The position numbers and the translations under genes were made by a program. Below, piece by piece: positions 29,037 through 59,999 of a stretch of DNA of 64,000 nt; position 1 is the stretch's first letter, and every line of letters starts with the position of its first letter. This stretch comes from Arcobacter sp. (GTDB lineage: Bacteria > Campylobacterota > Campylobacteria > Campylobacterales > Arcobacteraceae). The DNA lies in the NCBI GenBank assembly GCA_002869565.1, contig PKUJ01000020.1, positions 1 through 64,000 of the forward strand. Direction: 5' to 3'. The notes beneath the pieces are model-generated. The model saw only the letters and a program-made list of their open reading frames with translations. It searched no databases and was not told the origin of the DNA.

Positions 29037-29558
29037 ATGACTCAGGTACAAATTAGTAAATATTTAGATATTCCCTTTGCTACTCTTAATGATTGGAAAA
29101 AAGAAGATAGTAATAGAAATAGACTTTATCAACTTCTTATTAATCTTGATGAAAAAGAAGTACAAAATAAACTTAATAAAAAAACCACTCATAGATTCTT
29201 TCATATTCTAAATAGAAATATAGATAATAGTTCAAAATTTACTGCTAATGATATTAGAAAAGCTTATAATAAAAAAGATTATCATAAAGCAACTATTCAA
29301 GAACAAACTATATATGCAAAGTTTTTTAAAGAACTAGAAATAGAAGAATTAGATGAATTTATTCGAACTTTTAATGTATCAAAAAGAAATATTAAAAATA
29401 TTTATATTTCATCTCCTTTTAGAAATTTAGCTGGTGTTGCAAAAATTTGGGATAAAAGATTTAGACTAAAACATCTTGAATCAAATAATCAAAATAAAAA
29501 AACACTACCTATTGCTCTTCAAAATATTTTAAATAAAAAAGAATTATCTCATGTATGA
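29037..29558 (+). CDS. Probable antitoxin with N-terminal helix-turn-helix
   Basis: This 173-residue protein begins with a helix-turn-helix-like segment (TQVQISKYLDIPFATLNDWKKE) followed by a charged helical body. It is the first gene of a two-gene unit and overlaps the AbiEii-type nucleotidyltransferase gene by 8 bases. By position and HTH it is the likely cognate antitoxin and autoregulator, although it does not read as classic AbiEi. The family is not firmly recognised. Confidence 0.65.
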   Translation: MTQVQISKYLDIPFATLNDWKKEDSNRNRLYQLLINLDEKEVQNKLNKKTTHRFFHILNRNIDNSSKFTANDIRKAYNKKDYHKATIQEQTIYAKFFKELEIEELDEFIRTFNVSKRNIKNIYISSPFRNLAGVAKIWDKRFRLKHLESNNQNKKTLPIALQNILNKKELSHV

Positions 29559-30312
29559 TTTTTCAAAACAAAAAGCTATGCTTGAGGCAACACTTTTACT
29601 TCTAAAAGAGAGTAAGATAAGTGATGTCTCAACTCTCGGTGGTGGAACAGCTTTGGCTTCTTATTATTGGAACCACAGATATTCAACTGATATTGATATT
29701 TTTATATATGCTGAAGTTGATAAAAAACATCTATTAAAAGAATCTAATTGGAGTGAAAAAGTTAAAACTTCAATGCAAAAAATTGGATATAAAGGTAATT
29801 TTAGAAGTCATCCTATTTATTCAGAAATAGTAATAAACGAGGATAGTAAGATTCAAATTTTTGATGTTGTTAAAAAATCAAAAAATGCTTATCAAAAAGT
29901 AAACTTGTGGGGCCATGAATTACTAATTGATACAGTAGAAGAAATTATTGCCAAGAAGATTCATTATAGAGCTGACAAAGGTAATTCAAGAGATTTGTTT
30001 GATATTGCAATTGCTTTTCATAAAGAGCCTGATATTTTGACTAAAATAATTTTAAAAAAAGAGAAAATTATTTCACTTTTTACTACAGTAGCTAATATTT
30101 ACAAAAATGAAGAATTGAAAAATTTATATTTTGAAGAAATAAAACAGATGAATCCAAATAAACAGTATGAATTTTTAGCTTTAAATAGTATTGAGTATTT
30201 ATATAATTTACTTGAAAATATATGTGGAGCATATGATATATCACATGAGTTAACTAGTGAAGATTTTTTTGAGATTGAGAGTTATGTTTTCAATAATATA
30301 AATATTAAGTAA
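29551..30312 (+). CDS. AbiEii/AbiGii-type nucleotidyltransferase toxin
   Basis: This 253-residue protein has the nucleotidyltransferase core LGGGTALASYYWNHRYSTDIDIF, with the GG and D-x-D catalytic signature. The family continuation EIIAKKIHYRADKGNSRDLFDIAIA follows. AbiEii-type toxins block growth by modifying RNA and can abort phage infection. It follows its presumed antitoxin in the same transcript and is closed by a strong hairpin. The pair sits between tRNA-Sec and selD, interrupting an otherwise selenium-only region. Confidence 0.85.
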   Translation: MYDFSKQKAMLEATLLLLKESKISDVSTLGGGTALASYYWNHRYSTDIDIFIYAEVDKKHLLKESNWSEKVKTSMQKIGYKGNFRSHPIYSEIVINEDSKIQIFDVVKKSKNAYQKVNLWGHELLIDTVEEIIAKKIHYRADKGNSRDLFDIAIAFHKEPDILTKIILKKEKIISLFTTVANIYKNEELKNLYFEEIKQMNPNKQYEFLALNSIEYLYNLLENICGAYDISHELTSEDFFEIESYVFNNINIK

Positions 30313-30360: not shown

Positions 30361-31395
30361 CTAATGTATAATTATTGGCGTTAAACCTCTTGGTATTACT
30401 TCCCCTATAATAGTTGCATATCCATAAGTTAAATCTTCTACTCTTTTTATATATTCTTTTGCATCTTTTGGGTCCATTGAAATTAATAAACCACCTGACG
30501 TTTGTGCATCACAATACATTTGATAACATTTTGAAGTTGCACACATGATAGTGGTCTTATCTTCTAAATATTTCATATTTCTTTTTGTTCCACCAGGAAC
30601 TACATTTTGCGCTGCTAGTTCTTCTGCTTCTGGTATAACTGGAACAGCTCCACAGTGTATAGCAAATGACGTTAGGTTTGTTGTTGACTCTAAAGCATGA
30701 CCTAGTAGTCCAAATCCTGTAATATCTGTACAAGCACTTACATCATAATCTCTTAAAAGTTTAGATGGTAAGTAGTTTAATGTTTCCATAATTTTAACTG
30801 CTTCTTTTGTAGTTGCTTCATCTAATAAATCTCTTTTGATGGCAGTTGTTAAAATACCCATACCTAAAGGTTTTGTTAAAACTAATACATGACCAATTTT
30901 GGCAGTATTATTTCTTAATATTTTATCCGGATGAACAATTCCTGCAACAGATAATCCATAATACATTTCTGGACTTTCTATTGTATGCCCTCCCATAAGA
31001 AGACCACCACACTCTTTTATTTTTTCATTTCCACCCTTAAGTATTTCTCCTAGTGCATCTTTTGTTTGGTTTTTATTATCAAACCCAACAATATTTAGAG
31101 CAGTCTTAACATCTGCTCCCATTGCAAATACATCAGAAAGTGAATTTGCAGCAGCAATTTTCCCATATACATACGGGTCGTCAACTACTGGTGTTATAAA
31201 ATCAAGTGTCTGAACTAATGCTTCTTCATCATTTAATTTATAAACTGATGCGTCATCACTGTTTTCAAATCCTACAAGCACTTTATCATTGCATGGTACT
31301 AAGCTACTAATTGTTTGTTTAAGATCCCCCGGACCCATTTTAGCGGCTAAACCTGCAGCTTGAACGAATTTGGTTAATTTATATTCGTTATTCAT
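30361..31395 (-). CDS. selD: Selenide, water dikinase with Leu at the catalytic Cys/Sec position
   Basis: This 344-residue enzyme would make selenophosphate from selenide and ATP. Family features are complete: DDASVYKLNDEEALVQTLDFITPVVDDP, GKIAAANSLSDVFAMG, GGHTIESPE, TDITGFGLLGH, PGGTKRN and DAQTSGGLL. Where E. coli has AGCGCK (Cys17, Lys20), this protein reads AGLAAK, keeping Lys but replacing Cys with Leu (codon TTA). A TGA Sec codon would differ by one base. In E. coli the Cys is required, so activity here is uncertain. The selD promoter region is shared with the divergent reductase operon. Confidence 0.92.
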   Translation of the reverse strand: MNNEYKLTKFVQAAGLAAKMGPGDLKQTISSLVPCNDKVLVGFENSDDASVYKLNDEEALVQTLDFITPVVDDPYVYGKIAAANSLSDVFAMGADVKTALNIVGFDNKNQTKDALGEILKGGNEKIKECGGLLMGGHTIESPEMYYGLSVAGIVHPDKILRNNTAKIGHVLVLTKPLGMGILTTAIKRDLLDEATTKEAVKIMETLNYLPSKLLRDYDVSACTDITGFGLLGHALESTTNLTSFAIHCGAVPVIPEAEELAAQNVVPGGTKRNMKYLEDKTTIMCATSKCYQMYCDAQTSGGLLISMDPKDAKEYIKRVEDLTYGYATIIGEVIPRGLTPIIIH

Positions 31396-31465
31396 ATTAT
31401 CCTCGAATTATATTGTTATGAAATGTGTAAATAATTAGTTAATTGTGAGTAAACATTTATGTACA

Positions 31466-31478
31466 CCTATTCCATAGG
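31466..31478. promoter_or_regulatory. Dyad CCTATTCCATAGG upstream of selD
   Basis: This 13-base dyad lies about 70 bases upstream of selD. A near copy, GCTATTCCATAGC, lies upstream of the YedF-like gene at 34240. The shared core is CTATTCCATAG. It may be an operator for both minus-strand genes. Confidence 0.4.
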
Positions 31479-31524
31479 TTAATGTATAAGTATTCTACCT
31501 TCTCTTACGTTAAAATTAAATTAT

Positions 31525-31542: not shown

Positions 31543-31593
31543 TTTTAAGTTTTAATTTATAAAAATTTGATTATAGTTTTAATAAATAAGCAT

Positions 31594-31610
31594 AACCTAA
31601 GGTTTAGGTT
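31594..31610. promoter_or_regulatory. Palindrome AACCTAAGGTTTAGGTT upstream of the reductase operon
   Basis: AACCTAA and TTAGGTT form a perfect dyad around GGT. An identical 17-base copy lies upstream of the transglutaminase gene at 34366. In both places CTACATATGCT follows about 25-30 bases later, possibly including the -10 element. Confidence 0.55.
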
Positions 31611-31655
31611 AGACAAAAGTAAATATTCTCTTGCCTACATATGCTGTTAAAAATG

Positions 31656-31670
31656 GTCTAAGGTTTAGAC
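31656..31670. promoter_or_regulatory. Second dyad GTCTAAGGTTTAGAC upstream of the reductase operon
   Basis: GTCTAA and TTAGAC flank the same GGT centre as the 31594 palindrome, sharing CTAAGGTTTAG. It is probably a second site for the same regulator, 76 bases before the reductase ATG. Confidence 0.45.
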
Positions 31671-31745
31671 AAACATGATTTAAGACAGTAAAACTCAAAC
31701 AAATCTTTTTTCATGAAATTATTAAATTAAAATTAGGAAAATAAA

Positions 31746-33068
31746 ATGGGTGTACAAGAACATAGAGATCTTCTTTCGAATATTGGTGTTGATGTAGATA
31801 GACATGCAACAATGATGAGTATGGGTTTAGAATCATACCAAAATCAATTTATGTCACAAGAAAACAGACCAGAAGGTATGAAATATTTTGATTGGTTTAT
31901 GAGTGAAATTCAAGGTGGCAGAATTGCAGAGATTAATGAACTAAGAAAAAACAAAAAACCAGCTGTGGGAACTTTTTGTATTTTTGTTCCAGAAGAGATT
32001 ATTGTAGGAGCTGGTGGAGCATGTTTTGGTTTGTGTGGGGGAAGTCCTGCAACTATTGCAGATGCAGAGACTGAACTGCCTAGAAATATCTGTCCTTTGA
32101 TTAAATCAGCTCATGGTTTTAAACTTCAAAGAACATGTGCCTATACACAATCTTCAGATTTCATTTATGGGGAAACTACTTGTGAAGCCAAGAAAAAAAC
32201 TTGGGAGATACTCAATAAACATCATCCTGTTCATGTAATGAATATTCCACATATGAAAAGAGAAAAAGATTTAAAAATGTGGAAAGAGGAGATTGTAGAG
32301 TTTAAAGAGCATATTGAAGAGGTGATGGGTGAAAAATTATCTTTAGAAGAGATGATTAATGGAACTAAAATCATAAATGAGAAAAGAAAAGCTATGCAAA
32401 GACTTGATGCTCTTAGAGGATTAAATCCTGATGTTGTGCCAATTAGTGGAAAAGATGCTCTGTTTGTAAATCAAATGGGATTTTTAGATGATCCAAAAAG
32501 ATATACGCAAAAAGTGAATGAACTGTGTGATGAGTTAGAAAAAAGAGTTGAAGAGAAAACTTCAGTATTTGAAAAAGATATACCAAGACTGATGGTTTTA
32601 GGAACTCCAATTGCTCCTCCAAACTGGAAACTTCATACAGCTGTTGAAGGTTCTGGAGGGGCCATAATAAATGAAGAGTCATGTATAGGGCACAGATATT
32701 ATAAGGACAATGTTGATTTAGATAATATTGAAACTGAAGATGATTTGATGGGTGAACTTATGAAAAGATATAGTGCAGTTGATTGTGCTTGTTTTACTCC
32801 TAATACTCCAAGAATTGATAAAATCTTACAAATGTATAAAGATAGATGTGCAGATGGAGTTATTTATTATACTCTATCTTTTTGTCATACCTACAATGTA
32901 GAATCACATCTTGTAACTGAAGCCTTAGAAGCTGCTGGAATTCCTTGTCTGGTTATAGAATCTGATTATTCACCTGAAGATGCAGGACAAATTAAAACAA
33001 GAGTTGAAGCCTTTTTAGAGAGTATTTCTTTTAAAAATAAAGCTTTGAAATTTAAATCAAAAAACTAA
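31746..33068 (+). CDS. Double-cubane-cluster anaerobic reductase (2-hydroxyacyl-CoA dehydratase family)
   Basis: This 440-residue protein belongs to the HgdB/FldB-like family and matches the double-cubane-cluster protein branch. Cysteines for Fe-S clusters occur in GACFGLCGG, RNICPLIKS, QRTCAY, GETTCEAKKK, EESCIGHRYY, VDCACFTPN and SFCHTYN. Such proteins use ATP, through an activase, to send very low-potential electrons to small substrates; natural substrates are mostly unknown. The cognate activase follows after one base. Its setting next to selD and a YedF-like gene suggests a selenium-linked role (inference). Confidence 0.85.
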   Translation: MGVQEHRDLLSNIGVDVDRHATMMSMGLESYQNQFMSQENRPEGMKYFDWFMSEIQGGRIAEINELRKNKKPAVGTFCIFVPEEIIVGAGGACFGLCGGSPATIADAETELPRNICPLIKSAHGFKLQRTCAYTQSSDFIYGETTCEAKKKTWEILNKHHPVHVMNIPHMKREKDLKMWKEEIVEFKEHIEEVMGEKLSLEEMINGTKIINEKRKAMQRLDALRGLNPDVVPISGKDALFVNQMGFLDDPKRYTQKVNELCDELEKRVEEKTSVFEKDIPRLMVLGTPIAPPNWKLHTAVEGSGGAIINEESCIGHRYYKDNVDLDNIETEDDLMGELMKRYSAVDCACFTPNTPRIDKILQMYKDRCADGVIYYTLSFCHTYNVESHLVTEALEAAGIPCLVIESDYSPEDAGQIKTRVEAFLESISFKNKALKFKSKN

Positions 33069-33069
33069 T

Positions 33070-33831
33070 ATGTACTGGGGAGTAGATGTTGGTTCCACAT
33101 ATACAAAAATATGTGGAATCAATCAAAGCAAAGAGATTATTGATACAAAAATAATACCCACAATTGTCAATCAAGATGAGATTGTAAAAGAGTATTTAAA
33201 AGGTAAAGATATCCGAATGCTTGTCTCCACTGGATATGGAAGACATATGATTGAAGATACCTTTTCTTGTCCTGTAATCAGTGAAATAAAAGCCCATGCG
33301 AAAGGGGCGTATTTTTTTCAAAATGATGCTCAAATGGTTATCGATTTAGGTGGGCAAGATAGTAAAGTAATTTTGCTTGATAAAACAGGTGGATTTATTG
33401 ATTTTAAGATGAATGATAAATGTGCGGCAGGAACGGGCAAATTTTTAGAAATAGCTTCAAATAGAATGGGATTAGATTTAGATGAATTTTCAAAAATAGG
33501 ATTTGATGCCAATAAAGAACTAACAATTTCCAGTATGTGTGCAGTTTTTGCTGAATCGGAAGTTATTTCATTAATTGCAAAAAAAGAGAGTGCTTCAAAT
33601 ATATGTTATGCGGTACATGAATCCATCGCCTCAAGATTGGCTTCTATGGCTAGAAAATTTGCAATAAAAAGTGACTCTATAATTTTTACAGGAGGAGGGG
33701 CTTTAAATGGTTTTTTAGTTCATCTTTTATCAAAAAAACTGGAGAAAAATGTTATTGCTTCTTCTTATCCTCAATTAGTGGGTGCAATTGGTGCGGCACT
33801 TAGTGGTTATGAAGTCTATAATGAAATCTAA
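33070..33831 (+). CDS. Acyl-CoA dehydratase activase-type ATPase (BadF/HgdC family)
   Basis: This 253-residue protein is an ASKHA-fold ATPase with GVDVGSTYTKICG, DLGGQDSKVI, and GGGALNGFL near the C-terminus. Two conserved Cys (DKCAAGTGKFLE and SSMCAVFAESEV) hold a [4Fe-4S] cluster between the two subunits of a dimer. It injects electrons into the double-cubane reductase by ATP hydrolysis. It is the second gene of the operon and ends at a hairpin terminator. Confidence 0.9.
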   Translation: MYWGVDVGSTYTKICGINQSKEIIDTKIIPTIVNQDEIVKEYLKGKDIRMLVSTGYGRHMIEDTFSCPVISEIKAHAKGAYFFQNDAQMVIDLGGQDSKVILLDKTGGFIDFKMNDKCAAGTGKFLEIASNRMGLDLDEFSKIGFDANKELTISSMCAVFAESEVISLIAKKESASNICYAVHESIASRLASMARKFAIKSDSIIFTGGGALNGFLVHLLSKKLEKNVIASSYPQLVGAIGAALSGYEVYNEI

Positions 33832-33834
33832 AAA

Positions 33835-33867
33835 ACAATAGACCTTAAAAAGTCTATTGTCTATTTT
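33835..33867. terminator. Hairpin terminator after the activase gene
   Basis: ACAATAGAC pairs with GTCTATTGT around an A-rich loop, followed by a T-rich run. It lies between convergent activase and YedF-like genes and may work in both directions. Confidence 0.75.
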
Positions 33868-33879
33868 ACAGTAAAGAAG

Positions 33880-34221
33880 TTATAGTGATACAATATTTTC
33901 AGTAAGAAGCATTTTAGCTGTATCCATAGCATTACCTGCAATACCAACTTTCAAATCATCTCTTTTATTATAATAATCTAAACAAGTTCCACAAGAATAA
34001 ATATCAACTCCTTTATCTTTTATCTTTTTTAGAATTTGAAGGGTCTCATCATCTTCTTGTGCAGTAGTAAGTAAAACAGCACTATTCACACAAACAATTG
34101 CTTTTGGTGTTTCCTCTTGTTCATATATGGCATTTAAAAAACCTTTTACTAGCATTGAACCTAATTCTCCATCGCCAATTTTGTCCGATTTTAAAAAGAT
34201 AGTCTTTTTTGAAGTTTCCAT
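33880..34221 (-). CDS. DsrE/YedF-like selenium-metabolism protein
   Basis: This 113-residue protein resembles the C-terminal DsrE-like domain of YedF, a protein linked to selenium metabolism. Features are FLKSDKIGDGELGSMLVKGFLNAI, an ICVNSAVLLTT strand, and GVDIYSCGTCLDYYN with two cysteines that could carry sulfur or selenium. The N-terminal TusA domain of full YedF (about 200 residues) is missing. It lies convergent to the reductase/activase operon and shares a CTATTCCATAG dyad with selD. Confidence 0.8.
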   Translation of the reverse strand: METSKKTIFLKSDKIGDGELGSMLVKGFLNAIYEQEETPKAIVCVNSAVLLTTAQEDDETLQILKKIKDKGVDIYSCGTCLDYYNKRDDLKVGIAGNAMDTAKMLLTENIVSL

Positions 34222-34239
34222 TTGTTTCCTTTATGTATA

Positions 34240-34252
34240 GCTATTCCATAGC
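34240..34252. promoter_or_regulatory. Dyad GCTATTCCATAGC upstream of the YedF-like gene
   Basis: This dyad is 19 bases before the YedF-like start. It shares an 11-base core with the selD-upstream dyad at 31466. Confidence 0.4.
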
Positions 34253-34294
34253 TTATTTGATTCAATTATTTTACATCTTATTGAATTAAAAAAT

Positions 34295-34312
34295 GGTAAA
34301 TTATTTTTTACT
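34295..34312. promoter_or_regulatory. RGTAAA-N6-TTTACY dyad between the YedF-like and transglutaminase genes
   Basis: GGTAAATTATTTTTTACT matches the 48487 element over most of its length, including the following CTTTAAG-like tail. It lies 74 bases before the YedF-like gene and about 140 before the transglutaminase gene. Confidence 0.45.
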
Positions 34313-34365
34313 TTTAAGAAAACTTTTATACGTTCTTTAATATAGTAACAAACACGATAAGCATT

Positions 34366-34382
34366 AACCTAAGGTTTAGGTT
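34366..34382. promoter_or_regulatory. Palindrome AACCTAAGGTTTAGGTT upstream of the transglutaminase operon
   Basis: It is identical over 17 bases to the site at 31594 and is again followed by CTACATATGCT at 34412. It is likely an operator shared by the two operons. Confidence 0.55.
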
Positions 34383-34451
34383 GGACATAAAATTGATATG
34401 CATGAAATTTATGACTACATATGCTTCAAAAAAATTATTTTGGAGTAATCT

Positions 34452-35546
34452 ATGAAAAGAAGAACATTTTTAAAAGGTTCTGCACTACTATCTACTACTA
34501 TGTTAGTAAATCCTAATTTTGCCTTTGCAAAGACTGAGACAAATGCCTTTGGTATTAAAGATGGATATAGAAAGTTTACAATTGTAAACAATTATAAAAT
34601 GGAAGCTGCTGATGAAGATACACAACTTTGGGTTCCAGTTCCATTAACATCTAAATATCAAGAATTAGTAAATATTACTTTTAATGGTAATTATAAAAAA
34701 GCAGAAATTGTAACAAATGATTATGATGCAAAAGTTTTATATGTATTATGGGCTAAAGGAAAAGAAGCAAGAGAATTAAACATCACATTTGATGTAATGA
34801 CACATCAAAAAAGCATTGATTTATCATTAGCTAAAAATGACATGAGTTATGGTGATTCAGAAAAAACTTTTCTTGAGGCAACAGCACATATTCCTGTAAA
34901 TAATAAATTAAAATCTTTTACAAAAGATATTATAAAAGATGCTAAAACACCATTAGATAAAGCACAAGCTATTTATGATTGGACAGTTACAACAATGTAC
35001 AGAGACAATAGTGTAATAGGTTGTGGAGTAGGGGATGCAAACAAAGCACTTGAAGAAAAAATCTATGGTGGAAAATGTACTGATATTAGTTCAGTATTTG
35101 TTTGTCTATTAAGAAATGCAAATATTCCAGCAAGAGAAGTATTTGGTATCAGAGCTGGTAAATCTAAGATTGCCAAAGCTTGTGGTAAAGCAGATGAAAA
35201 AGGATTTGCAAAAATTACTGGTGGACAACATTGTAGAGCAGAATTTTTTGTAAGTGGTTTAGGTTGGGTTCCAGCTGATCCTGCTGATGTTACAAAAGTT
35301 AGATTGGCAGAAAAACTAACTAATGAAGATCAAAAAGTTAAAGACGCGAAAAAATTCATGTTTGGTTCTTGGGAAATGAACTGGGTTGCATTTAATTATG
35401 CTAGAGATTTTGTACTAAATCCAAAACCAACTCAATACCCAATTAATATGTTAGGTTATCCATATGCAGAAGTTGGAGAAGATGCTCAAGATTACTATAA
35501 TGCAAAAGGTTTTGCATATAGTTATACTTCTCAAGAGAGAGTATGA
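34452..35546 (+). CDS. Tat-exported transglutaminase-like protein
   Basis: This 364-residue protein has a twin-arginine signal (KRRTFLKGSALLSTTMLVNPNFAFA). It is followed by an N-terminal beta domain and a transglutaminase-like cysteine-protease core. The triad is visible as Cys in GGKCTDISSVF, His in GGQHCRAEFF and Asp in VPADPADV. It probably acts on periplasmic proteins or peptides. It overlaps the MerT-like gene by 4 bases, so it is the first gene of a three-gene operon. GGAGTAATCT precedes the start. Confidence 0.85.
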   Translation: MKRRTFLKGSALLSTTMLVNPNFAFAKTETNAFGIKDGYRKFTIVNNYKMEAADEDTQLWVPVPLTSKYQELVNITFNGNYKKAEIVTNDYDAKVLYVLWAKGKEARELNITFDVMTHQKSIDLSLAKNDMSYGDSEKTFLEATAHIPVNNKLKSFTKDIIKDAKTPLDKAQAIYDWTVTTMYRDNSVIGCGVGDANKALEEKIYGGKCTDISSVFVCLLRNANIPAREVFGIRAGKSKIAKACGKADEKGFAKITGGQHCRAEFFVSGLGWVPADPADVTKVRLAEKLTNEDQKVKDAKKFMFGSWEMNWVAFNYARDFVLNPKPTQYPINMLGYPYAEVGEDAQDYYNAKGFAYSYTSQERV

Positions 35547-35869
35547 GACGAGGTTTCCTTCCGATAATAGGTGCAGTAATTACTGCACTATTATCAACGC
35601 TATGCTGCTTACCAGCTTTTTTATTTATATTCTTTGGAATATCAAGTGGAGTTTTATCTTATTTTACAACCTTAGGGTATATTAGAATTCCCCTTGCTAT
35701 TTTAACTATAGTGCTTTTTCTTTATGGTATAAAAAAATTCAATACTAAAATTGCTTGTAACTGCACAAAAAAAGATATGATAAAAAACTATCTTTTTTTT
35801 AGTTTTTTCTTTGTATTAGTATTGTTCCTTCTTTTATATCCAGAGATAATACCTTATTTTATGGACTAA
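35543..35869 (+). CDS. MerT-like metal transport membrane protein
   Basis: This 108-residue protein has three membrane segments. The first contains the vicinal cysteine pair typical of MerT (STLCCLPAF). A second cysteine pair in the loop (IACNCTKKD) matches the MerT cytoplasmic site. MerT moves mercuric ion inward, but relatives may handle other soft metals. No mercuric reductase gene is near, and the first operon gene is a transglutaminase, so mercury need not be the substrate. Confidence 0.75.
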   Translation: MRRGFLPIIGAVITALLSTLCCLPAFLFIFFGISSGVLSYFTTLGYIRIPLAILTIVLFLYGIKKFNTKIACNCTKKDMIKNYLFFSFFFVLVLFLLLYPEIIPYFMD

Positions 35870-35872
35870 ATT

Positions 35873-36151
35873 ATGAAAATATTAATATCAATCTTTTTAC
35901 TCACAATCTCGCTTTTTGCTTCAAAAGTTTCTATTATAAAAGTTGAAGGTATGCATTGTCCTTTATGTACAACCGCTGTAAAAAAAGCTATTAAAAAACT
36001 TGATGGAATAGAAAAAGTTAGCGTGAGACTAAATACAAAAGAAGTAACTGTAAAATACAAAGACGAAGTAAAAATGGAAGATTTGTTAAAAGCTATAGAA
36101 ACTACTTCTTATAAAGGTGAAGAAATCTCTACAAGTGAATATGTGAAGTAA
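35873..36151 (+). CDS. MerP-like periplasmic heavy-metal-associated domain protein
   Basis: This 92-residue protein has a signal peptide (MKILISIFLLTISLFAS) and one heavy-metal-associated domain with the metal site GMHCPLC. It then reads TAVKKAIKKLDGIEKVSVRLNTKEVTVKY in the usual ferredoxin-like fold. It probably passes a soft metal to the MerT-like protein encoded 3 bases upstream. It closes the transglutaminase operon. Confidence 0.85.
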   Translation: MKILISIFLLTISLFASKVSIIKVEGMHCPLCTTAVKKAIKKLDGIEKVSVRLNTKEVTVKYKDEVKMEDLLKAIETTSYKGEEISTSEYVK

Positions 36152-51315: not shown

Positions 51316-54156
51316 ATGGGTAAGAATATACTTAATAACTTACCTTTGAAAATAGGAAGAAGAAATTTTTTAAAATTAGCTTCAGTTGGTGCAGGATTAG
51401 GAATAAGCAATGCTTTTGCTTCAAATAATTCCATTCGACCAGCAAGTCAAGAAGAAATAAAAAATCCATTTCCTAATTCAAAGATGGTTAAAACTATATG
51501 TAGTATCTGTTCCGCTGGCTGTGGGATTGTTGCTGAAGTTCAAAATGGTGTGTGGGTAAGACAAGATGTCGCTCAAGATCATCCTATTAGTGAGGGTAGT
51601 CACTGTTGTAAAGGGATTGATCAAATTGATTTAGTTAAAAGTAAACAACGGGTTAAACATCCAATGAAAAAAGTTGCAGGAAAATGGGAAAGAATTTCTT
51701 GGGAAACTGCAATAAAAGAAATATCTGAAAAAATGTTAAAACTAAGAGCTGAAAATGGTCCTGATGTAGCAATGTTTTTAGGATCTGCAAAATTTAATTT
51801 ACAACAAGCTTTTTATTTCAGAAAGTTTGCTGCAATGTGGGGTACGAATAATATCGATCACGTAGCTAGAATTTGACATAGTGCAACAGTCGCCGGTGTG
51901 GCGAATACATGGGGTTATGGCGCTATGACAAATCATTTTGGTGATGTGGTCGGACATTCGAAAGCTATATTTATGATTGGAGCAAATTCAGCTGTTGCCA
52001 ATCCAATTGGATTTAAGCATTTTCTACAAGCAAAAGATAGAAATAATGCAAAACTTATTGTTATAGATCCAGTTTATACAAAATCTGCTGCAAAAGCAGA
52101 TCATTACTTAAGAATTAGAACAGGTACTGATATTGCATTTATTTATGGACTTCTACATCTTATATTTAAAAATGGATGGGAAGATAAAAATTTTATAAAA
52201 GAACGAGTTTATGGAATTGAAGAAGTTATTGAAGAAGCAAAAAAATGGACACCTGAAGAAACATCTAATGTTACAGGAATTCCTGCTGAAAAAATAATTC
52301 AAATTGCAAGACTAATGGCTAAAACAAAACCAGCTACAGTAGTTTGGGCCTTGGGAATTACTCAACACAGTACAGGAACATCAAATACAAGAATTTTACC
52401 AATATTACAATTAGTACTTGGAAATATGGGACAACAAGGTGGAGGATGTAATATTATTCGTGGACATGATAATGTTCAAGGATCAACAGATATGTGTTGT
52501 TTAGCAGATAGTTTACCTGGATATTACGGTTTAGGTGAAGGATCATGGAAATATTATGCTAAAGGTTGGGGCGTAGATTACGAATGGCTACAAAAACGAT
52601 TTGCTGCACCTAAATGGATGAATAAAAAAGGATTCTCTCTTGCAAAATGGTGGCAAGGCGTATTACAAGAAGAAAAAACATACTCTTCTTCACCAATCAG
52701 AGCACTTTGGGTTCAAGGTACAGGAATCACTTCTATGGCTCAGACATCAAAAGTTAAAGAAGCCTTAGATAAATTAGACCTTTTAGTTATTGCAGAACCA
52801 TTTGTAAATGAAGCTGCTGTTATTACAGAAAAAACTGATGATATTTATATTCTTCCTGTAGGAACTCAGTTTGAAACTGAAGGTGTAGTTACTGCTACAA
52901 ATAGAACTGCACAATGGAGAGATAAAGTGGTTGATCCCTTATATGAATCAAAAACTGACCATGATGTAATGTTTGAATTTGCTAAGAAATTTGGCTTTTA
53001 TGAAGAGTATACTCGTGCAATGAAGATGGATGTTGTTGATGGTAGACTAAAAACTGTTAAAGAAGATTTCTATTTTGCAGACGATGCAATAAATGAGATT
53101 GCAAGAATAGTTAAAACTATTGGTCTTGGTGGTTGGACAGCTAAAAGATTAAGAGCACATCAAAAACAATGGCATTTATTTGATCCTATAACTTTAAAAG
53201 GACGAGGTCCTATGAAGGGTGAATATTACGGATTACCTTGGCCATCATGGGATACAAAACATCCTGGAAGTCCAATTTTATATGATGTTAATACTCCTGT
53301 TAATGAGGGAGGAATGGGATTTAGAAACAGATTTGGTTTAGAACATGAAGGAAACAGTTTATTAGCAGATGATGCAGTAACAGTTAAAGGGTCTAAAATC
53401 AAAGGTGGATATCCTGAAATTACAAAAGATAATATTGAAGCAGTTCTTGGAATAACTTTGACAGAAGATGAAAAATCTAAAATAGGTTCAAATTGGAAAA
53501 CAGATTTTAGTGGAATTATTCAAGAAAAATGTAGAGCTGCAGGAGTTGCTGTGTATGGAAATGCAAAAGCTAGAGCAAAAGTTTGGACTTTTCCTGATCC
53601 AATTCCAAAACACAGAGAGCCAATTCACTCTCCACGACAAGATTTGGTTGAAAAATATCCAACTTATGAAGATCAAACTGATAACTTTAGAGTGGATGTT
53701 AAATTTAAATCAGAACAAAGCGAGAAAGATTGGTCAAAAGAGTTTCCTACAATGCTTGTTACAATGAGAGTTGTAAACTTAAGTGGAGCAGGGATGCTAG
53801 AGCGTACAAGTAAATATTTATCTCATATCACGCCTGAAATGTTTGCACATATCAATCCTGAGCTTGCAGCAGAGTATGATTTAAGAGATGGAGATGAGAT
53901 GTGGTTACATGCTCCTCAAGGTACAAAGATTAAAGTAAAAGCAATTTATTCTCATAGTGTAACACCTGACAGAATATCCTTGCCATACAATTTTGCTGGT
54001 GTTATGCAAGGTGTAGATATGACTATGAATTATCCAGAGGGCACAAAACCTTATGCGACAGGTGAGAGTTCTAATACAATTACTAATTATGGATTCGACA
54101 TCATTACTCAGATTCCTGAGTTTAATGCAGGTCTTTGTCGAGTAGAAAAAGCTTAA
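51316..54156 (+). CDS. fdhA: Formate dehydrogenase large subunit, selenocysteine-containing (copy 1)
   Basis: This molybdopterin enzyme of 946 residues oxidises formate at the periplasmic face. A Tat signal (GRRNFLKLASVGAG) opens it. The [4Fe-4S] site follows (ICSICSAGCGIVAEV...HCCKG), then in-frame TGA 51874-51876 encoding Sec187 in ARI-Sec-HSATVAGVANTWGYG. Pterin-binding segments such as GNMGQQGGGCNIIRGHDNVQG and a C-terminal dinucleotide-binding domain complete it. The frame is continuous across the TGA, which is the expected catalytic Sec, and a SECIS-like hairpin follows at once. AAGGA precedes ATG 51316. Confidence 0.95.
51874..51912 (+). promoter_or_regulatory. Sec codon and SECIS-like hairpin in fdhA copy 1
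   Basis: After TGA, TCGCC (51890-51894) pairs with GGCGA (51900-51904) around loop GGTGT, about 14 bases from the codon. This position and a G-T-containing loop match bacterial SECIS elements read by SelB. Confidence 0.8.
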
Positions 54157-57167: not shown

Positions 57168-59999
57168 ATGTCAAAAAATACATATGAAGCACTGAAAGCA
57201 AAAATCGGTAGAAGATCATTTTTAAAAATGGCTGCTGTCGCTACTGCTGCTGGTGCAACAAGTATTTTGGCAAATGATGGAGTAACTAGACCTGCAACTG
57301 ATGAGGAAATTAAAAATCCTTTTCCTGGTTCCACAAAAGTTAAAACTATCTGTAATGCATGTTCTGTTGGATGTGGGATTATAGCTGAAGTACAAAATGG
57401 TGTTTGGGTAAGACAAGAAGTAGCACAAGATCATCCAATTTCTCTTGGTGGTCATTGTTGTAAAGGTGCTGATATGATTGATATGGTTAGGTCTGAGGTT
57501 AGACTTAAGCATCCAATGGTAAAAGAGGGTGGAAAATGGAAAAGATTATCTTGGGACGATGCTTTAGATAGAATCGCAAACAAGTTAGCTAATATGCATA
57601 AAACAGCGGGTCCAGATTCTGCAATGTTTTTAGGATCAGCAAAAATGAGTACAGAGCAAGCTTACTATTTTAGAAAGTTTGCAGCAATGTATGGGACAAA
57701 TAATATAGATCATCAAGCTAGAATTTGACATAGTGCTACAGTCGCCGGGGTGGCGAATACATGGGGTTACGGTGCTATGACAAACTCACTTGGAGATATC
57801 CAAAACGCAAAAGCTATTATTATTTTCGGAGCAAATCCTGCGGTAAATCACCCAGTTGGTTTCGGACATTTTTTAAAAGCAAAAGAGAGAAATAACGCAA
57901 AAATTATTGTTATTGATCCTGTATTTACAAAAACTGCTGCAAAAGCAGATTATTATTGCAGAATTAGACCTGGAACAGATATTCCATTTATGTATGGAAT
58001 GTTACATCTTATTTTCAAAAATGGTTGGCATGATGAAAAATTTATTGCTGATAGAGTTTATGGAATGGAAGATATTATGGAAGAAGCTAAAAAGTGGAAT
58101 CCTGAAAAAGTTTCAGATGTTACTGGTGTACCAGTAGATAAATTAATTCAAATTACAAAAGTATATGCTGAATCTACTCCTGGAACACTGATTTGGGCAA
58201 TGGGATTAACTCAACATACAGTTGGTTCATCTAATACTAGACTTGCACCAATTTTACAATTATCTCTTGGAAATATGGGTGAAGAAGGTGGTGGAACAAA
58301 CATTTTAAGAGGACATGATAATGTACAAGGGGCAACAGATATGTGTTGTTTATCTCATACATTACCAGGTTATTATGGTTTAAGTGATGGTTCATGGAAA
58401 TATTTTGCAAGTTCATGGGGTGTTGATTACAACTGGTTGAAAGGTCGTTTCAAAGCTAAAGAATGGATGAATAAAAAAGGGTTTACTCTGTCTCGTTGGT
58501 GGGCTGGAGTTCTTGATGGAAAAAATGGTAACGATAAAATTTCTAATGGAGGAACTAACTTAAAAGCTCTTTTTGTAATGGGTAATGGTATTACTTCAAT
58601 TGCACAACAAGCAAAAGTTAAAGAAGGTCTAGATAATTTAGAAATGTTAGTTCTTTGTGATCCTTTTGTAAATGAAGCAGCTATTTTAACTGATAAACAA
58701 GACGATGTATTTATTTTACCTGCAGCAACGCAATTTGAAACAAGTGGTTCTGTAACAGCTACAAATAGATCTGTACAATGGAGAACTAAAGTTGTTGAGC
58801 CAATGTATGAGTCAAAAACAGACCATGAAGTAATGTTTGAATTAGCAAAAAGATTAGGCTTTTATGAGCAATATACAGCTGGAATGAAAGTTAAAGAGAA
58901 TAAAAAAGATTTCAAATGGCCAGAAGATGCTACTGATGAGATTGCAAGAATTATTAAGACTATTGGTCTTACTGGATGGACTGCAAAAAGAATTAAAAAG
59001 CATACTAAAAACTGGCATATGTTTGACCAAATATCTGGACGTGGATATGGTGAAATGAAAGGTGAATATTATGGATTACCTTGGCCTGTATGGACAGAAA
59101 CTCATGGTGGAAGCCCGATTCTTTATAACATTAATAGAAGTGTAACAGATGGAGGAATGGGATTTAGAAATAGATTTGGTTTAGAACATGATGGTGTATC
59201 TCAATTAGCAGGAGAGGGAAGTGCTCCTAAATTATCTTCTAATAAAGATGGATATCCTGAAATTACAAGAGATAATATTGAAGCAGTTCTTGGAATAACT
59301 TTGACAGAAGAAGAAAAATCAAAAATTGGTAAAAACTGGAAAGTAGATACCTCTAATATTATTGCCCAAAAATGTATGGAAAGAGGAATCGCACCTTATG
59401 GAAATGCAAGAGCTAGAGCAAAAGTTTGGACTTTTCCTGATCAAATTCCAATGCATAGAGAACCACTTCATTCTCCAAGACAAGATTTAGTTAAAAAATA
59501 CCCAACTTATGAAGATAAGGGTAATCATTATAGAGTTGATACTTTATATAAAACTAAACAAAATGAAAAAGATTGGTCAAAAGAGTTCCCTGTTAACTTA
59601 GTTACAGGAAGACTAGTAAATATGAATGGTGCTGGAATGGAAAATAGAGCAAGTAAATATCTTGCTGCTTTAACTCCTGATATGTTCTGTGATATTAATC
59701 CAGATTTAGCAGGAAGACATGGCATTAGAGATGGGGCAATGATGTGGATTCATTCTCCTGAAGGTACAAAGATTAAAGTCAAAGCAAAATATTCTCATAG
59801 TGTTACAGAAGATAGAATTTTCTTACCATTTCACTTTGCTGGTGTTTTTCAAGGTGAAGATTTATCGCACAAATATCCTAAGGGAACTAAACCTTATGCA
59901 GTAGGTGAAAGTGCAAATACAGTTACTAACTACGGTTACGACATCATCACTCAGATTCCTGAGACAAAAGGTGGATTATGTCGAATCGAATTAGCGTAA
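57168..59999 (+). CDS. fdhA: Formate dehydrogenase large subunit, selenocysteine-containing (copy 2)
   Basis: This 943-residue protein is a full paralogue of copy 1. It has a Tat signal (GRRSFLKMAAVATAAGA), the [4Fe-4S] site ICNACSVGCGIIAEV...HCCKG, in-frame TGA 57726-57728 for Sec187 (ARI-Sec-HSATVAGVANTWGYG), and pterin segments (GNMGEEGGGTNILRGHDNVQG). ATG 57168 is preferred because AAAGGA lies 8 bases before it; ATG 57150 would add six residues. The two copies differ at many positions, so they are older duplicates than the fdhC pair suggests. Activity may depend on FdhB1, because fdhB2 is interrupted. Confidence 0.94.
57726..57764 (+). promoter_or_regulatory. Sec codon and SECIS-like hairpin in fdhA copy 2
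   Basis: The TCGCC/GGCGA stem is the same as in copy 1, at the same distance from TGA, but the loop reads GGGGT instead of GGTGT. The loop base at position three has changed from T to G. Confidence 0.78.

Follow-up and report, generated by a model that had tools for sequence, protein, structure and literature searches.

In E. coli the 5' UTR of selAB carries a SECIS-like hairpin subject to SelB-mediated repression. The leaders described in this work likewise place a hairpin with a loop G in the 5' UTR of selenium genes, but they differ in loop and closing pair from the SECIS elements of their own clade, bear extra helices, and precede uptake and redox genes rather than selAB. With translational riboswitches they share the 5' position, a conserved covarying RNA structure, in the main Arcobacteraceae form a P1 helix and a sequestering hairpin that would exclude each other, and the recurrence of the element on many genes of a single pathway; they differ in lacking an Rfam match and in occurring in several versions (junction type, hairpin-plus-P1 type and tandem). 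The control of selenium genes by LysR_Se and HrsM (PMC5322559, PMC9312934) concerns the same kind of regulon, but operates between protein and DNA. Bacterial selenium sensing is largely open, since reviews name just a LysR-type regulator, which is lacking here by family score, and a small leader RNA common to selenium uptake, activation and redox genes would offer a direct handle on it. The intergenic regions of Arcobacter sp. L have been included in a riboswitch screen (Stav et al. 2019, PMC6429828), which left several Arcobacter-only motifs unnamed; its main text does not mention selenium, and the unnamed motifs of its supplements may overlap the leader described below. Selenium is not mentioned in the main text of an orphan-riboswitch review either, and no selenium riboswitch was found in the open-access literature.

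The window analysed is a stretch of 64,000 nucleotides of an Arcobacter sp. contig (PKUJ01000020.1). It contains a selenium cluster composed of selB, selA, selC (tRNA-Sec), selD, a double-cubane reductase with its activase, yedF and a transglutaminase-merT-merP operon. On the minus strand are the selenophosphate synthetase gene selD (30361-31395; TIGR00476, 351 bits) and yedF, of which the DsrE-like part only is present (33880-34221; TIGR03527, 122 bits, cut-off 110). On the plus strand are the double-cubane-cluster-containing reductase (31746-33068; NF040772, 450 bits, cut-off 350), the acyl-CoA dehydratase-type activase (33070-33831; TIGR00241, 230 bits), a secreted transglutaminase-like protein (34452-35546), and the merT-like (35543-35869; NF045683 and NF033556) and merP/copZ-like (35873-36151; TIGR02052) genes, the matches of the latter two being below cut-off. 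The transglutaminase-like protein has no NCBIfam match but has homologues in relatives, and the assignment given in the preliminary description was kept. Codon 16 of selD (31344-31358, minus strand) is TTA, for Leu, in place of the UGA for selenocysteine found in nearly all Campylobacterota relatives, giving AAGLAAK instead of AAGUAAK at the catalytic position, while the SECIS sequence is retained; this could be a point change, a sign that selD is inactive, or an error of sequencing. Between selC/selA and selD (29037-30312) lies a pair of genes similar to toxin-antitoxin systems of the AbiE type.

The preliminary description had pointed to an identical palindrome in front of the reductase and transglutaminase operons. 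Both copies of AACCTAAGGTTTAGGTT are in place (31594-31610 and 34366-34382), as are the related dyad GTCTAAGGTTTAGAC (31656-31670) and the downstream CTACATATGCT of both operons (31635-31645 and 34415-34425, 41 and 49 nt from the palindrome start). A scan of the window for AACCTAAGGTTTAGGTT with up to 3 mismatches gave 4 matches (the two sites on both strands) against 0.53 expected, and 0 shuffles reached 4. The pair of palindromes and the dyad are genuine and well beyond chance expectation. The genome-wide search proposed at that stage (3.49 Mb) found the 17-mer exact at just these two sites, the next best match having 2 mismatches. Two minus-strand relatives had escaped the preliminary description, ACCTATGGAATAGGT (31465-31479) 5' of selD and AGCTATGGAATAGCT (34239-34253) 5' of yedF. 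The strict pattern CTAWGGWWTAG-N3-6-ACAWA occurs 4 times in the genome, every time within this cluster, and with a covariance model the 3.49-Mb genome yields five copies, all in this cluster and with 32-36 bits, the next best match in the window scoring 15.5 bits. Each palindrome has a minus-strand selenium gene on one side and a plus-strand operon on the other, which brings the transcription units concerned to four. The idea of one control for two operons is supported in so far as a common element leads both, here and in relatives, but the unit is four, with selD and yedF included.

The selD leader element (31454-31482, minus strand, 35.9 bits) has the hairpin ACCUAU-GGA-AUAGGU (31465-31479), which is supported by covariation, followed by the flank GUACAUAAA. 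The leader of the double-cubane reductase has two tandem elements on the plus strand. In element a (31592-31620, 35.4 bits) the hairpin, here called P2, is AACCUAA-GGU-UUAGGUU (31594-31610), that is the first palindrome, and is enclosed by a P1 helix (31589-31645) pairing AGCAU (31589-31593) with AUGCU (31641-31645) inside CTACATATGCT; element b (31653-31681, 32.0 bits) has the hairpin GUCUAA-GGU-UUAGAC (31656-31670) and the flank AAACAUGA. The yedF element (34228-34256, minus strand, 32.7 bits) has the hairpin AGCUAU-GGA-AUAGCU (34239-34253) and abuts AAAGGA and the start codon downstream. The element of the transglutaminase-merT-merP operon (34364-34392, plus strand, 34.5 bits) has as P2 the second palindrome, again AACCUAA-GGU-UUAGGUU (34366-34382), a P1 (34359-34426) of AAGCAU (34359-34364) with AUGCUU (34421-34426), and a further helix P3 of CAUAAA (34386-34391) with UUUAUG (34408-34413). 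Downstream, the predicted fold has a hairpin of CUUCAAAA with UUUUGGAG (34424-34445, plus strand) that hides the Shine-Dalgarno GGAG (34442-34445) and has CUU (34424-34426) in common with the 3' strand of P1.

The strict pattern was searched in 397 genomes of the class, then in the taxonomic family and then in a second family, with many matches. Those in relatives are surrounded by the same genes and by an ABC transporter. Its binding protein reaches 367 bits with the model TIGR04553 ('putative selenate ABC transporter'; cut-off 250). The redox and metal theme turns out to be selenium in place of mercury or copper, as the relatives bear the same leader on this transporter. Matches without such neighbours were mostly within coding sequence; those inside coding regions (e.g. 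L273, L277, L278) were taken as chance. The covariance model R1, composed of the hairpin and the 3' flank, found 87 copies in 72 stretches, namely the window and 674 kb of loci from 71 relatives. All 85 mapped matches precede, in sense direction, a member of five selenium gene families (22 transporter, 21 transglutaminase, 20 selD, 13 yedF and 9 double-cubane reductase), usually 75-100 nt from the start codon, a figure which measures specificity of place and direction and not independent discovery, because the loci were partly picked by the motif. R1 had no match in 799 kb of non-Campylobacterota control loci with a transglutaminase homologue, and in a wider search of the class 25 of the 30 best-ranked matches given a locus adjoin these genes. 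Weak R1 matches in other families (L338, L339, L351, L355, L356) have no adjoining selenium gene in the stretch examined and may be chance matches; that of L338 (1490-1530) reaches 32 bits, with the hairpin AAGCAUAGGUUAUGCUU and the flank UACAUAAA.

In a gene-first check, leaders were picked by gene instead of motif and scored for a GG-loop hairpin with an A-rich flank. The hairpin was present in 22/22 transporter leaders, in 8/8 leaders of the double-cubane reductase and in most transglutaminase leaders of Campylobacterota, and was missing from several selD and many yedF leaders, the latter partly on account of misjudged gene starts. Several of the hairpins have differing stems (ACCAUA-GGU-UAUGGU, GCUUAA-GGU-UUAAGC, AACUCA-UGGAU-UGGGUU). 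All 42 element-bearing genomes tested carry selB, and selA is present wherever the element occurs in the own family, one incomplete genome excepted. The computation shows a selenium regulon headed by the common leader. In the STRING table of PMC5322559, YedF is independently connected with an activase, with an enzyme resembling transglutaminase and with a subunit of 2-hydroxyglutaryl-CoA dehydratase. Shared control would assign the orphan double-cubane reductase, the secreted transglutaminase and MerT-MerP to selenium metabolism. The site opposite selD is occupied by the transporter in some genomes and by transglutaminase-merT-merP in others (L155-L156, L157-L158, L247-L251), and the model search found no genome with the element on both; from this alternation we infer that the transglutaminase-MerTP operon may be an alternative route of selenium acquisition. 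In a Sulfurovum homologue of the transglutaminase (L053, 2302-3258) the catalytic site reads GGUC, with a possible selenocysteine beside the catalytic cysteine.

Most transglutaminase and transporter leaders combine the flanking helices P1 and P3 with a hairpin sequestering the ribosome-binding site. P3 begins two nucleotides after P2 and P1 encloses both. The pairings vary among leaders, with CAUAAA/UUUAUG, CAUAUA/UAUAUG, AUAUAAAU/AUUUAUAU and ACAUAA/UUAUGU for P3, and AAGCAU/AUGCUU, GUUC/GAAC, GCACAA/UUGUGC and GCACG/CGUGC for P1. Against strand-swap controls P3 scores 5.48 (4.80+-0.26, largest 5.43) and P1 12.9 (11.5+-0.5, largest 13.2), a modest and a moderate excess respectively in AT-rich sequence; both helices also exceed shuffled controls. 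In the computed folds of the transporter and transglutaminase leaders the ribosome site is sequestered: nearly all of those of the Arcobacteraceae have the Shine-Dalgarno paired in the minimum-energy fold, by GCUUCAAAA/UUUUGGAG or by CUCUUAAUAG/CUAUUAGAG. The first of these pairings is the main form in the Arcobacteraceae; in it GCUU belongs to both the 3' strand of P1 and the sequestering hairpin, so that the two would exclude each other. The GUUC/GAAC form has another geometry, with a P1 strand within the hairpin loop. The hairpin is weak or absent in the transglutaminase leaders of family f10 and in double-cubane reductase leaders, and the exclusion is not clear in these nor in yedF leaders. 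For P1 in selD leaders the score is 8.7, shuffled sequences giving 4.1+-1.0. In these leaders the 3' half of P2 may alternatively pair with a downstream strand (AGGUGUA/UACACCU, AGGUAUA/UAUACCU), at 14.65 compared with 13.5+-0.6 (largest 14.9) for swapped strands. The folding energies of single leaders are unremarkable, with z of about 0 to -1.5.

The palindrome had been read tentatively as the binding site of a MerR- or ArsR-type metal sensor, and a dimeric transcription factor of this or of the selenium LysR type might be expected from its position, as the palindromes overlap the expected transcription start, a frequent repressor site, and as the selenium-linked LysR family occurs in other bacteria (PMC5322559). 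A DNA operator would predict changes in single arms, the half-sites varying independently, but the arms change jointly at every position: in 53 distinct sequences double changes occur in all seven pairs of P2, and the five core pairs are formed in 53/53. There are 56 double-change cells against 17+-3 shuffled, and the covariation score is 0.492 against 0.184+-0.019 shuffled and at most 0.186 in slid versions; one position uses four pair types (CG, UA, GC, AU), and covariation is seen separately in the junction-type set and in the selD/yedF-type set. P1, P3 and the alternative selD helix are supported as well, but more weakly than P2. The element is directional and always sense to its gene, with a constant GGN in the centre and ACAUA on the 3' side alone. 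In 87% of copies, compared with 41% in shuffles, a -10-like box precedes the element by 18-40 nt, so that the element would start the transcript. LysR_Sec_metab (NF040786) is over cut-off in none of 26 element genomes, and in a non-systematic look at the loci examined no single regulator gene recurs beside the elements. A protein on a DNA operator is accordingly quite improbable; since the stem covaries, the loop is constant and the flank is one-sided, the repeated palindrome is the P2 hairpin of a structured RNA leader.

Granted an RNA, SelB carrying Sec-tRNA could bind the leader as a SECIS-like hairpin and report selenium sufficiency on selenium genes. P2, as a hairpin of 5-6 bp with an invariant loop G, matches the published minimum of an epsilonproteobacterial SECIS (PMC4607533), the yedF copy adjoins the ribosome site, and the selB found in all 42 element genomes tested is a necessary, not a sufficient, condition. 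The SECIS elements of the clade (fdhA, selD) nevertheless have a C-G closing pair and five-base loops of G/C-G-G/U-G-U or near, whereas the leaders have A/U-GG-N-A/U as their loop and A-U or U-A as closing pair, a difference which argues against SelB. The elements sit in intergenic leaders, with no UGA codon at SECIS distance before the hairpin, and SelB binding leaves the conserved ACAUA flank, P3 and P1 unexplained; we consider a SelB target unlikely. An mRNA hairpin without a sensor, serving 5' stability or processing and shared by common ancestry of the leaders, would suit copies such as yedF in the window, which are barely more than a hairpin. It is a very improbable account of an element that is found in several bacterial families and there limited to five families of selenium genes, with a constant loop and flank and mutually exclusive folds exceeding the needs of a stabiliser. 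CsrA recognises GGA in a hairpin loop, and was discarded as most copies have GGU, GGC or GGG; a T-box was also discarded, the loop apparently having no consistent match to the CCA end of tRNA-Sec. Rfam gave no match to any element, neither in the window with E values up to 5 nor, at the gathering scores, in six loci.

We therefore regard the element as probably a cis-acting, riboswitch-like structured RNA leader of a selenium regulon. Two features expected of a riboswitch are present, a covarying conserved structure in the 5' leader and functionally related genes in all mapped matches; conservation in many relatives and the switch-like build make it a candidate for the first selenium-linked riboswitch. 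In the model proposed, the messages of selD, yedF, the double-cubane reductase and transglutaminase-MerTP, and in relatives that of the selenate-type ABC transporter, would each begin with a structured RNA. In transglutaminase and transporter leaders P1, P2 and P3 would form a three-way junction, and the 3' strand of P1, AUGCUU, would double as the 5' strand of the GCUUCAAAA..UUUUGGAG hairpin hiding the Shine-Dalgarno; translation would be on with the junction formed and off with the hairpin formed, and selenium status would flip the switch. The most likely route appears to be that a selenium-related ligand binds the junction directly, with about an even chance of being right; the signal may be a selenium compound, a marker of shortage, or SelB/tRNA-Sec. 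By the logic of the folds, translation is turned on by a signal that stabilises the junction, which would be unexpected for an uptake gene other than in response to shortage. Tentatively, the leader could represent a riboswitch class of its own, which would be the first known to respond to a selenium compound or to selenium shortage, controlling uptake, reduction, YedF and SelD in Campylobacterota. Were this true, transglutaminase-MerT-MerP and the double-cubane reductase would become selenium-metabolism genes, with uptake controlled through the selenate ABC transporter or MerT-MerP and reduction through the double-cubane reductase.

Elsewhere in the window there are two formate dehydrogenase alpha genes (51352-54150 and 57204-59990) with in-frame UGA codons at 51874 and 57726, and a third is found on the same contig just beyond the window.
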